A program made the position numbers and the translations under genes. 64,000 nucleotides of DNA from an uncultured Clostridia bacterium (GTDB taxonomy: Bacteria > Bacillota > Clostridia > Lachnospirales > Bianqueaceae), in NCBI GenBank assembly GCA_944383515.1, contig CALWPV010000087.1, positions 1 through 64,000 on the forward strand, in the 5' to 3' direction. Positions 10,431 through 13,732 of the stretch are shown here, in pieces. The notes below the pieces were generated by a model. That model was not told the origin of the DNA, made no database searches, and was given only the letters and a program-made list of their open reading frames with translations. Within the stretch, counting starts at the first letter, position 1; the number at the start of each line of letters is the position of its first letter.

Positions 10431-11408
10431 TTATAGCACATCCCGTAGAATGCGCTCTGCGTTTCCATGGGCAAATTTTTCTATGGCGTCGTCTGAAAAT
10501 CCGCGGCGGGAGAGCTCGTCAAAGATTTTGTATATATCCAGAGGAGAGGCAACTTCCAGGTCGCCACGAATGCCGTCCCAGTCAGAACCGAGAGCCACGG
10601 TTTCAATGCCGGCAATCGTTGCAATATGCTGCACATGATCGCCGATGCGCTTTACGGTACTGGCCGTATCGTGTATGGTTTCGCCAATGAATTCTGGCGC
10701 AAAGTTAATGCCCATGACACCGCCTTTTTCCGCTAAGAGCCGAATCATATCGTCGGTTAGGTTTCTTTGGTGCGGCGTGAGAGCGCGAGCATTGGAATGG
10801 CTGGCGACAAAGGGTTTTTGCGTAGTGCGGGCTACGTCGTAGAAGCCGCCGTCCGACAGATGGGAGACGTCAATAATCATGCCCAGCCGGTTCATTTGCT
10901 CTACGGCCTCCATTCCAAACGGTGTCAGTCCTTTTTGCATTTCCTGAGGATCCGAAGAGTTGGGATAGCCGAAGCAGTTCGGAAAATTCCATGTAAAGGA
11001 AATGAGGCGATAGCCCATGTCATAAAAAGCTGCCAGCTTTTCGTGACTGCCCTCCACCATGCGGCCGTCTTCAAAGGTTAAAAAAGCGCTGATACGGCCG
11101 GCGTTACGATTGGCTTTGTACTCTTCAAAGTTACGCGCGAAACCAATTAAATCGGCATGCTCGCGAATGGTATCCATGAGACCGTTATATAAGCGGCTGC
11201 GGAACACCTCGTCATCGATCCCTTGCGCCTGCATGTGAACTTTGGGCGGCATGAAGGTAGCAAAAAACTGTGCTGCGCAGCCGCCGGCCTTCATGCGCAC
11301 AAGATCTACGGATTTGTCGTTTTGATACAGGGAAGGGGCAGCCTCTGCGGCGCCGGATTCACGTCCAAACATCATTAGGGTGTCACAATGAAAATCAATG
11401 TAATGCAT
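10431..11408 (-). CDS. membrane-dipeptidase-type metallopeptidase (M19)
   Basis: A zinc dipeptidase of the renal dipeptidase family, cleaving dipeptides including forms with D-residues. The 325 residues begin with the metal motif DFHCDT (His7, Asp9). SHSNARALTPHQRNLTD in the middle and ALGSDWDGI towards the end supply the other ligands and the substrate pocket. There is no signal peptide, so it is probably cytoplasmic, unlike the mammalian enzyme. AAGGAGA precedes the ATG. Its long leader (about 160 bases) holds a 15-bp tandem repeat, and an extended -10 promoter lies at 11568-11576. Confidence 0.88.
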   Translation of the reverse strand: MHYIDFHCDTLMMFGRESGAAEAAPSLYQNDKSVDLVRMKAGGCAAQFFATFMPPKVHMQAQGIDDEVFRSRLYNGLMDTIREHADLIGFARNFEEYKANRNAGRISAFLTFEDGRMVEGSHEKLAAFYDMGYRLISFTWNFPNCFGYPNSSDPQEMQKGLTPFGMEAVEQMNRLGMIIDVSHLSDGGFYDVARTTQKPFVASHSNARALTPHQRNLTDDMIRLLAEKGGVMGINFAPEFIGETIHDTASTVKRIGDHVQHIATIAGIETVALGSDWDGIRGDLEVASPLDIYKIFDELSRRGFSDDAIEKFAHGNAERILRDVL

Positions 11409-11486
11409 AGTTTGTCTCCTTGTTGAGTTATGTGTTTATGTTAGAGCCATGTTCCACGCGGGCATGCCTGCATAGGAAATACCAAA

Positions 11487-11526
11487 TATGGGCATGCCAC
11501 GTATGGGCATGCCACGTATGGGCATG
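11487..11526. repeat. 15-bp tandem repeat, 2.7 copies
   Basis: The unit TATGGGCATGCCACG occurs twice in full and once in part. Each full unit contains the palindrome GGCATGCC. The array sits in the transcribed leader of the dipeptidase gene, about 80 bases before its start. Confidence 0.85.
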
Positions 11527-11567
11527 GAGGTTTTACTGGTAAAAAAGGGCGGCTCTCCTGTGTGGGC

Positions 11568-11576
11568 ATTATACCA
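11568..11576 (-). promoter_or_regulatory. dipeptidase promoter (extended -10)
   Basis: On the minus strand TGG-TATAAT is an extended -10 box. The -35 region (TCGCCA) is a poor match. Confidence 0.6.
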
Positions 11577-11654
11577 TATGTTCAGCGCGTTGGCGATCCC
11601 CGCTTTGGAAAAGTTGTTTATTATTATTTTCTCTATCCTGTAAACGCGAAAGTA

Positions 11655-11663
11655 TGTTATACT
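11655..11663 (+). promoter_or_regulatory. promoter of the leader ORF/ABC-F operon (extended -10)
   Basis: TGT-TATACT is an extended -10 box; no good -35 is seen. The start of transcription would be about 45 bases before the leader ORF. Confidence 0.6.
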
Positions 11664-11716
11664 AAAGTCTAGCGGCGCAGTGCGCCAGTTAAAAGAAACG
11701 AAAGGAGTTTATTTGT

Positions 11717-11809
11717 ATGTTACCGTACTATACAACCATTGTCAAAAGCCATGCAAAGCTCACGGTGTATCTTCCGCTTTGTATGGCTAAAGAAATGAAA
11801 TCTTTGTGA
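11717..11809 (+). CDS. 30-residue leader peptide ORF
   Basis: A short ORF with a good ribosome site (AAAGGAG, 9 bases before the ATG) encodes 30 residues from MLPYYTTIVKSH to KEMKSL. It resembles no known protein. Its coding sequence contains a 13-base stem (11747-11759 with 11776-11788, one G-U pair). The left arm can instead pair perfectly over 10 bases with 11873-11882, and the right arm (11783-11792) with 11848-11858. Such competing pairings are typical of leader peptides that control ABC-F genes through ribosome stalling. No T-rich terminator is seen, so the mechanism is unclear. Translation of this ORF is inferred only from the ribosome site. Confidence 0.6.
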   Translation: MLPYYTTIVKSHAKLTVYLPLCMAKEMKSL

Positions 11810-11882
11810 AATGTATTTCAGATTTCGTACAAGATAGTTCAGTCAGGCTTTAAGCCATTCTGCGGACATATTTGAGCTTTGC
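11747..11882 (+). promoter_or_regulatory. leader with mutually exclusive RNA pairings (candidate attenuator)
   Basis: Four segments can pair in alternative ways. Segment 1 (11747-11762) pairs with 2 (11776-11788). Segment 2 (11783-11792) pairs with 3 (11848-11858, one bulge). Segment 1 (11753-11762, GCAAAGCTCA) pairs with 4 (11873-11882, TGAGCTTTGC). Segments 1 and 2 lie inside the leader ORF; 3 and 4 lie just before the ribosome site of the next gene. Confidence 0.5.
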
Positions 11883-11918
11883 TTCTGATCGGAACGAATA
11901 AGAAAAGGAGCAAATCGT

Positions 11919-12203
11919 ATGAAATATATCAATGCAGAAGAATTACTACCTAAAGAACTCATTGAGCAGATTCAGGCTTTTATTACGGGGGGATATCTCT
12001 ATATTCCCACGAATGAGCAAAAGAAAGCGTGGGGCACCAATACCGGAATTCGCCGGGAACTGTCCGAGCGCAATCGGGAGATTTACCAAAAATACCAGCA
12101 AGGAGTCAGAGTCGAAGATCTCTCTGCAGGGTATTGCCTTTGTAAATCCAGCATTTATAAAATCATTCGTAAGCAAGCGGAGCAAAAGGAGAATCGATCA
12201 TGA
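11919..12203 (+). CDS. small HTH protein resembling the CD3324/Mor family
   Basis: A 94-residue basic protein. It begins with MKYINAEELLPKELIEQIQ, has a GGYLYIPTNEQKKAWG stretch, and ends in a predicted helix-turn-helix (GVRVEDLSAGYCLCKSSIYKIIRKQ). This layout resembles small Clostridial proteins annotated as CD3324 family with a Mor-activator-like helix-turn-helix. That assignment is from memory, and DNA binding is inferred. AAAAGGAG lies 8 bases before the ATG. Its stop overlaps the ABC-F start (ATGA), so the two are translated together, and it could regulate the operon. Confidence 0.65.
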   Translation: MKYINAEELLPKELIEQIQAFITGGYLYIPTNEQKKAWGTNTGIRRELSERNREIYQKYQQGVRVEDLSAGYCLCKSSIYKIIRKQAEQKENRS

Positions 12204-13732
12204 GTATCTTAGAAATGGAACATTTATCTCACGCGTTTGGCGATGTCATATTGTACCAAGATGCGAGTCTGCGCTTAAACGCGGGAGAACATATGGGACT
12301 GATTGGCGATAACGGGGCCGGTAAAAGTACGTTATTAAAAATCATAATGGGAACGTTTCTGCCCGATGCAGGCAGTTTGTGGATTGCCCCTCGTTACCGG
12401 CTGGGGTATCTGGATCAGCAGGCTAGGCTGAATCCGCTAGAAACCATTCACGAATATTTAAAGAGCGCCCATGAGCGGCTGTATCAAGTAGAGCGTCAAA
12501 TGGAGGAAAAATACCAGCAGGCCGCCGAAAATCAGGACCAGGGGGCGCTGCTTCAGCAAGCGGCCAGACTGCAAGAAACGCTGGAACGCGAAGGATTTTA
12601 CGAAATAGAATATCAAATGGAGCGCATAGCCCGGGGGTTAGGTGTGTATGCCATGGGGTACGATACTCCCATGGCGCAGCTTAGCGGTGGTCAGCGCGCA
12701 AAAGTGATTTTAACCAAATTATTATTGGAGTCACCCGATGTACTGCTGATGGACGAACCCACCAACTTTTTAGACGCCGAGCAAATACAGTGGCTGATTC
12801 AGTTTTTGCAAAACTACCCCGGCGCGTTTATTGTAGTGTCGCATAATCAAGAGTTTTTGGAACCGATCAGTCAGTGCATTAGCGATCTTGCATTCGGCAA
12901 AATCACTACCTATCGCGGCAGTTTTTTGGCCGCCATGCGGCAAAAAGAGTTTAATAGGCAGCAGAAGCTGCGGCTCTATGAGAGTCAGCAAAAACAAATT
13001 CAAAAGCTAGAGACTTACATTGCGCGCAACAAGGTGCGCGCCTCGACGGCGGCCATGGCGAAGAGCCGCGAAAAGGCGCTGGCGAAGATGGAGCGAATCG
13101 CGCCGCCGGCCAGTACGGGAGCGCCGCAGTTTCGGTTTCCGGCCATTCGTATGGCGCCGCAGGTTGTTTTGGAAGTAAAGAATTTGCAAATTGGCTATGA
13201 AACGCCGCTTTTGCCGCCGCTTACATTTAAAATGAAAAGCGAGGAGAGCGTGGCCATTTGCGGCTTTAACGGCGTGGGAAAGACGACGCTGTTAAATACG
13301 CTGATGGGGCGTTTGCCCAAACTGGACGGCTTTTTTTATTTATGCAGGGCAGGGAGTATTGCGTATTTTGAGCAGGAGACGAAGTGGGAGAGGCAGGTAA
13401 CGCCGCTCTCTTATTTGCGCCGCCTTTTTCCAGATCGGAGAGAAGGGGAGCTAAGGGGCGCGCTCGCACGCGCAGCGGTGAAACGTGAGCATATGCGGCA
13501 AGAAATGGTAACGCTATCCGGTGGGGAGCAGGCGAAGGTGAAGCTGGCGAGTATGAGCCTTGCGCCGCATTCTTTTTTGATTTTAGACGAACCTACGAAT
13601 CACCTCGATGAAAAGGCCAAAGAGGCGCTGATAGAAGCGCTGCGCTCTTATCACGGCGCGCTCATTGTTGTATCGCATGAAAAAGCGTTTTGCCAGGCCG
13701 TGGCGCAGCGGATAATTATGCTGGGTAGCTAA
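12200..13732 (+). CDS. ABC-F family ATPase
   Basis: A soluble protein with two ABC domains and no membrane segment, 510 residues. Walker A motifs are GDNGAGKS (36-43) and GFNGVGKT (near 354), each followed by an ABC signature (LSGGQ, LSGGEQ) and DEPTNFLD or DEPTNHLD. The linker between domains is a charged helical segment with RASTAAMAKSREKALAKMERI-like sequence, as in other ABC-F proteins. ABC-F members act on the ribosome: some ease stalled translation, others protect from antibiotics that bind near the peptidyl-transferase centre. Which applies here cannot be told from sequence. The leader ORF and RNA pairings upstream favour drug- or stall-induced expression. Confidence 0.88.
   Translation: MSILEMEHLSHAFGDVILYQDASLRLNAGEHMGLIGDNGAGKSTLLKIIMGTFLPDAGSLWIAPRYRLGYLDQQARLNPLETIHEYLKSAHERLYQVERQMEEKYQQAAENQDQGALLQQAARLQETLEREGFYEIEYQMERIARGLGVYAMGYDTPMAQLSGGQRAKVILTKLLLESPDVLLMDEPTNFLDAEQIQWLIQFLQNYPGAFIVVSHNQEFLEPISQCISDLAFGKITTYRGSFLAAMRQKEFNRQQKLRLYESQQKQIQKLETYIARNKVRASTAAMAKSREKALAKMERIAPPASTGAPQFRFPAIRMAPQVVLEVKNLQIGYETPLLPPLTFKMKSEESVAICGFNGVGKTTLLNTLMGRLPKLDGFFYLCRAGSIAYFEQETKWERQVTPLSYLRRLFPDRREGELRGALARAAVKREHMRQEMVTLSGGEQAKVKLASMSLAPHSFLILDEPTNHLDEKAKEALIEALRSYHGALIVVSHEKAFCQAVAQRIIMLGS

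Follow-up and report, generated by a model that had tools for sequence, protein, structure and literature searches.

The window, as we call the whole stretch of 64,000 nucleotides analysed here, carries a short leader open reading frame (ORF), a gene for a small regulator and a gene for an ABC-F ATPase:

11655-11663, + strand: candidate extended -10 promoter of the leader transcript, TGTTATACT, read by eye
11701-11707, + strand: Shine-Dalgarno of the leader ORF, AAAGGAG, from the sequence
11717-11809, + strand: leader ORF of 30 codons, MLPYYTTIVKSHAKLTVYLPLCMAKEMKSL, from the ORF list and a homologue in genome G001
11735-11746, + strand: codons T7-I8-V9-K10, predicted stall place, from the peptide kept in G001 and from ribosome-placement folding
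11919-12203, + strand: gene for a CD3324-family protein of 94 aa with a Mor-like helix-turn-helix (NF040785, 107.5 bits versus a cut-off of 65; PF08765 Mor, 35.9 bits versus 24.9)
12200-13732, + strand: gene for an ABC-F ATPase of 510 aa, its start overlapping the CD3324 stop (ATGA, 12200-12203)

The first-pass annotation had described a 30-codon ORF with a good ribosome site, which proved exact, and genes for a helix-turn-helix protein and an ABC-F ATPase downstream; the former belongs to the CD3324 family and the latter is joined to it by the ATGA overlap. The ABC-F protein scored 368.7 bits against the ribosomal protection-like ABC-F model (NF000355), under the curated cut-off of 380, and its closest solved structures were YheS, YbiT and EttA. 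A search of genome contigs with this protein returned only five distant relatives. CD3324 was not found among phage records. The candidate -10 element has a counterpart at a similar place in G001, TGCTATACT (read by eye), and a consensus promoter scan of the leader region did not report a + strand promoter around 11655-11663. Short direct repeats of GGGCATGCCACGTAT were seen by eye at 11461-11527, between a dipeptidase-like gene and the leader.

Within the leader, five segments are predicted to take part in alternative pairings:

11747-11762, + strand: segment 1; 11747-11759 pairs with segment 2 and 11753-11762 with segment 4
11776-11788, + strand: segment 2, right arm of the 13-bp hairpin, from pairing and alignment
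11848-11858, + strand: segment 3; AGCCAT (11853-11858) pairs with ATGGCT (11783-11788) of segment 2
11873-11886, + strand: segment 4; 11873-11882 pairs with segment 1 and TTTGCTTCT (11878-11886) with segment 5
11906-11914, + strand: segment 5, AGGAGCAAA, the Shine-Dalgarno region of the CD3324 gene, predicted to be sequestered by 4:5

Hairpin 1:2 lies inside the ORF and has 13 contiguous pairs, including one G-U (11747-11759 with 11776-11788). The helix between segments 1 and 4 is a perfect 10 bp (11753-11762 with 11873-11882), and segment 3 offers the right arm of the hairpin its AGCCAT/ATGGCT partner. These three pairings had been proposed before, and all were recovered; helix 4:5, of 9 bp (11878-11886 with 11906-11914), was absent from that proposal. 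Since 1:4 and 4:5 have 11878-11882 in common, they would compete with each other. Folding and covariation thus put the CD3324 Shine-Dalgarno inside a hairpin, from which a rival pairing would release it. The earlier idea that the leader ORF and its competing pairings control an ABC-F operon stands in part: conserved pairings do precede the ABC-F gene, but they end on the Shine-Dalgarno of the CD3324 gene. A scan of the + strand of 11401-12300 found no terminator-like site, in agreement with the earlier remark that no classical terminator was visible, and translational control is therefore the best reading. The window and 25 loci gave no leader match at the Rfam gathering score.

Helix 1:4 was matched in 2% of 100 dinucleotide shuffles of the window sequence and 4:5 in 3%, so that each helix alone is suggestive at most. 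As judged from sequence, the case for real pairings is one of conservation, not of single-sequence statistics. A search with the leader DNA matched 2 of 196 genomes, the window's own and G001, the sole same-genus genome among those compared. G001 retains the ORF, with the homologue MTFDQTIVKGHAKFKVLYRLCMAQQ, together with 1:2, 1:4, 2:3 and 4:5. Its 1:4 helix (GCAAAGTTTAA with TTAAGCTTTGC) differs from that of the window by one pair changed on both sides and one changed on one side. The residues TIVK ahead of segment 1 are identical in the two genomes, and three of their four codons differ synonymously (ACC/ACT, GTC/GTT, AAA/AAG).

Whole-genome searches collected 145 oriented CD3324 loci; in five of them the leader offered no candidate for 4:5, and the remaining 140 were scored. 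In 75 of the 140, the best long-range helix with an end close to the start site beat 95% of dinucleotide shuffles, and 61 of these reached the 0.01 level; single-leader tests of 4:5 were weak (24/140 at 0.05). Thirty-six leaders, including that of the window, were chosen by eye as type C. They share a layout of core CTCCATGCAAAG, arm TTTGCATGGAG, CTTTGC and then an anti-Shine-Dalgarno stretch. Each leader's own pairings were compared with swapped ones in 5000 permutations per helix, none of which matched the result, whether for 1:4 and 1:2 (tested on 31 non-redundant leaders) or for 4:5 and 2:3 (on all 36). In a MAFFT alignment of 30 type C leaders (A2), 1:4 was paired in 95.0% of 300 cells and 1:2 plus 4:5 in 81.3% of 659 cells, percentages inflated because the selection of type C used the pairings themselves; the swap, shuffle and slide controls were made within the set. 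For 1:4, 43 double-changed cells were counted versus 13.7 after shuffling, the covariation score was matched in 0 of 500 shuffles, and sliding the partners lowered pairing to 32-52%. For 1:2 plus 4:5, there were 29 double changes versus 11.7 shuffled, again with 0 of 500. RNAalifold on A2 predicted 1:2 only. In sequence comparison, all four helices (1:2, 1:4, 2:3 and 4:5) covary relative to swapped or shuffled controls. The first-pass annotation had proposed looking in relatives for compensatory changes and for conservation of the pairings; the two-sided change in the 1:4 of G001 and the double changes across the class provide the former, and the pairings are kept in both.

A leader ORF with a ribosome site running into segment 1 was found by a fixed rule in 29 of the 36 type C leaders, where 6.8 would be expected from shuffled upstream sequence, and was absent by that rule in the other 7. 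The ORF crosses the RNA core in all three frames (14, 4 and 11 leaders) and stops 12 to 75 nt past it. This variation of the reading frame indicates that the core is kept as RNA; the leader ORF needs only to bring a ribosome to it.

The window leader was folded with a ribosome placed on each codon, three footprints being assumed. The CD3324 start site was open at 0.01 when the leader was free and at no more than 0.09 at other codons, while a ribosome at T7 or I8 opened it to 0.40, 0.48 and 0.31, depending on footprint. These codons fall in the conserved TIVK. The start site in G001 opened at T6/I7 (0.25, 0.31 and 0.31 for the three footprints). Across the 36 leaders, mean opening went from 0.15 in the free leader to a peak of 0.35, and 1:4 from 0.33 to 0.72, when the leading edge stood 3 nt short of the core; in the fold model only 9 of the 36 start sites gained at least 0.3. 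Five of 60 shuffles of the window leader mimicked it, with a closed site that some codon opened to at least 0.25. With the P-site at I8 and a -12/+15 footprint, 1:4 formed (0.67) and the site remained closed (0.03). In Vat-type leaders, the predicted P-site codon encodes asparagine in L085, L095, L115, L154 and L158 under the fixed ORF rule. The same was seen in L124, L130 and L136 through an alternative ORF chosen by eye, a Vat-like neighbour not being established for L124 and L136.

We consider it likely that the leader is a translational attenuator controlled by its ORF, in which a stall near T7/I8 frees the CD3324 start site. When no ribosome is stalled, 1:2 would form and segment 4 would mask the CD3324 Shine-Dalgarno through 4:5. 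Segment 1 appears to be split in function, its 5' half serving 1:2 only and its 3' end 1:4 only. If a ribosome stalls with its P-site near T7/I8, so that its leading edge comes to lie right before GCAAAG, it would cover the 5' half and break 1:2. The 3' half, left free, could then pair with segment 4, with 2:3 nested inside. The start site would thereby be released, and CD3324 and the overlapping ABC-F would be translated; the overlap of the two genes in the window means that both would switch on together. We infer both the stalling on the leader and the direction of switching. The trigger would probably be antibiotics acting on the ribosome.

A stall near the end of the ORF (around codons 20-25, LCMA) would work the same switch in another way, by covering segment 2 and letting segment 1 emerge behind the ribosome to pair with segment 4. 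LCMA is present in the peptides of both the window and G001, the G001 site also opens to 0.12-0.26 with the P-site at codons 22-25, and across the family 1:4 climbs to a probability of 0.58-0.68 once the leading edge has moved 39-54 nt beyond the core. However, the window opens only up to 0.09 at codons 20-23, less than at T7/I8, and the LCMA codons sit in arm 2 of the hairpin, so that RNA pairing explains their conservation. Ten of the 29 ORFs, moreover, stop 12-19 nt past the core and so could not bring a ribosome over segment 2. We therefore regard a late stall as unlikely.

The strong conservation of the core CATGCAAAG as RNA, irrespective of reading frame, would also suit a ligand riboswitch, a protein-binding leader or a small-RNA target that merely overlaps a small ORF. 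Such an element is quite improbable given the excess of leader ORFs over expectation, downstream genes that are mostly of translation-drug resistance types and do not belong to one pathway, and the lack of an Rfam match among the loci searched. Transcription attenuation in the style of vmlR, cplR or hflXr, with a leader terminator that forms unless a ribosome stalls, has precedent in the ABC-F leaders of vmlR and cplR, which combine terminators with Shine-Dalgarno sequestration according to the passages on these leaders in PMC9226507 and PMC10201436. It is very unlikely here, as the + strand of 11401-12300 yielded no terminator-like site and what comes after segment 4 is an anti-Shine-Dalgarno stretch and no T run. 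Chance pairings without function in the window's genome would fit the single-sequence shuffle values of 0.02 and 0.03, but are scarcely credible beside the compensatory change in G001 and the covariation counts of the class.

In translational attenuators of the ermC type, a leader ORF is combined with mutually exclusive hairpins, and the Shine-Dalgarno of the next gene is hidden until a ribosome stalls. The attenuator proposed here is like them in all three respects. It differs in that the 5' arm of the first hairpin would itself be the release strand, acting through segment 4, in that the first controlled gene encodes a small regulator, and in that the core is kept as RNA while its reading frame changes. 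The product of whiB7/wblC is a WhiB-type iron-sulphur protein. Attenuators of the ermC type are mentioned in the relevant part of PMC6310831. The vmlR and cplR upstream ORFs encode MIN and MR[I/M] tripeptides, according to the same passages of PMC9226507 and PMC10201436. As far as these passages go, the window shares with them an upstream ORF ahead of an ABC-F gene and Shine-Dalgarno sequestration, and departs from them in its 30 codons, its lack of a terminator and the intervening CD3324 gene. The whiB7/wblC leader, in the parts of PMC7157823 and PMC12121999 that deal with it, controls a small regulator tied to ribosome-drug resistance by transcription attenuation sensed through an upstream ORF. 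On that description, a small transcription regulator sensed by an upstream ORF and linked to ribosome-drug resistance is common to both systems, whereas here the regulator, CD3324, is Mor-like and control appears to be translational. Staphylococcal fusB has a leader peptide before the gene, as stated in a section of PMC12561750, which to that extent resembles the leaders found ahead of FusB-type genes below.

Shine-Dalgarno release controlled by an upstream ORF (ermC, cplR, vmlR) and control of a small resistance regulator by an upstream ORF (whiB7) are thus already known. The suggestion that the mode of control might be new was not borne out, translational attenuation of a known kind being the simplest reading; a small regulator is, however, an unusual target for leader-peptide translational attenuation. 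Full-text searches of one open-licence library brought up no paper recognised as describing CD3324 leaders.

An ABC-F gene follows the CD3324 gene in only 5 of the 145 CD3324 loci; the type C loci with this arrangement are the window, G001, G031, G601 and G644. Nineteen distinct proteins encoded downstream of type C CD3324 genes were searched by model. FusB/C/D/F-like proteins were found in L022, L129 and L105 by model and in L101 and L108 by likeness, with FusB-type scores all far under the curated cut-offs. Vat-like acetyltransferases were assigned by model in L085, L095, L115, L130 and L154, none of them reaching the Vat cut-off of 300 bits, and by likeness in L158. Other neighbours were GNAT acetyltransferases, a methyltransferase and a protein with a nucleotidyltransferase domain, but there were also a metallo-hydrolase, an L-PSP protein and a transposase; two proteins matched no family. 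L003, which has the G031 locus, carries a palindrome, GGTAGTAACTACC, just before a -10-like TATGAT, downstream of CD3324 and upstream of the ABC-F gene, which may be a CD3324 operator; a c-di-AMP riboswitch match lies nearby at 2302-2427.

A terminator-like hairpin was found within 130 nt of the CD3324 stop in 15 of the 36 type C loci, where 0.5 would be expected, by a rule that allows loops of up to 8 nt and misses long-loop hairpins seen by eye after CD3324 in G001 and G031. With a terminator after CD3324, the leader would reach the neighbouring gene through the CD3324 protein only, which suggests that CD3324 is an activator of that gene.

A covariance model built from A2 (R1) matched the window at full length (55.5 bits, E = 4.8e-12), the window being one of its 30 training rows and so not independent. 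Tested in 144 of the 145 CD3324 loci (L168 was left out), R1 gave 34 leader matches at E ≤ 0.001, of which 30 were training rows. A search of 398 genomes of the phylum gave 29 matches at E ≤ 0.01, spread over 24 of them. Fifteen of them lay at a CD3324 gene or remnant, most being training loci, with the exception of L202, L208, L211 and L212. In loci without CD3324, R1 lay directly before FusB/C-like genes (L214, L223 and L224 by model; L225 and L226 by likeness) and Mef-like transporters (L213 and L215, below the Mef cut-offs). The match in L210 precedes an apparent CD3324 remnant, read by eye, and that in L216 a kinase-like ORF; matches L217-L221 (E > 0.001) are probably due to chance. None of 26 ABC-F loci gave an R1 match below E = 0.06, and the switch is consequently not general to this ABC-F family. 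By its distribution, the predicted switch goes with regulators of the CD3324 type and with several genes of resistance type.

Four of seven named plasmid loci matched R1 (Paenibacillus sp. IHB B 3084, P. cellulosilyticus, Pseudalkalibacillus hwajinpoensis and Paraclostridium bifermentans); it was not found in those of Priestia megaterium, Enterococcus raffinosus and S. aureus pUB101, whose fusB stretch in this respect differs from the leaders described here. On the Priestia megaterium plasmid (L231, 1-1833), where the R1 leader is absent, a macrolide glycosyltransferase gene adjoins a gene for an EF-G-binding protein.

A wider reading is possible, and we offer it tentatively. Many Bacillota may share a so far undescribed antibiotic alarm, in which a mobile leader-ORF RNA switch responds to stalled ribosomes by turning on either a FusB/C-like or Mef-like gene directly, or CD3324, which would activate a neighbouring ABC-F, Vat-like, FusB/C-like or acetyltransferase gene in trans, as a counterpart of the WhiB7 circuit of actinobacteria. 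The proposed switch would provide a sequence signature from which inducible control of resistance-type genes by ribosome sensing could be predicted. It would also give the uncharacterised CD3324 family a role, and supply leader peptides with predicted stall codons that are testable against named drugs.

Other kinds of leader were also seen before CD3324 genes. Type A (L007, L071, L091 and others), in the last 110 nt before the CD3324 start, has a short ORF, roughly 8 codons long and closing with GCA TAG, a pairing of CAAAGGCTATTGC with AATAGCCTTTGCTATTCCTAA and an anti-Shine-Dalgarno stretch; its neighbours include DUF1062 and RNHCP. Type B (GCTCAGTAGTCTGAGC; L005, L006, L008-L010, L149 and L155) has an ORF such as MTRRYVIAQ, whose stop codon lies in the loop of GCTCAG-TAGT-CTGAGC, and the right arm of this hairpin pairs with TAAGCTCAGA near the start site. 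Type D (L017, L025, L026, L153 and L161-L168) precedes CD3324 genes that mostly start with TTG and has an upstream motif around GGGTGGTTTT..CTAACCTAAAAAG, with a possible peptide like MTNKGWFLS; some of its neighbours look like conjugative-element genes.
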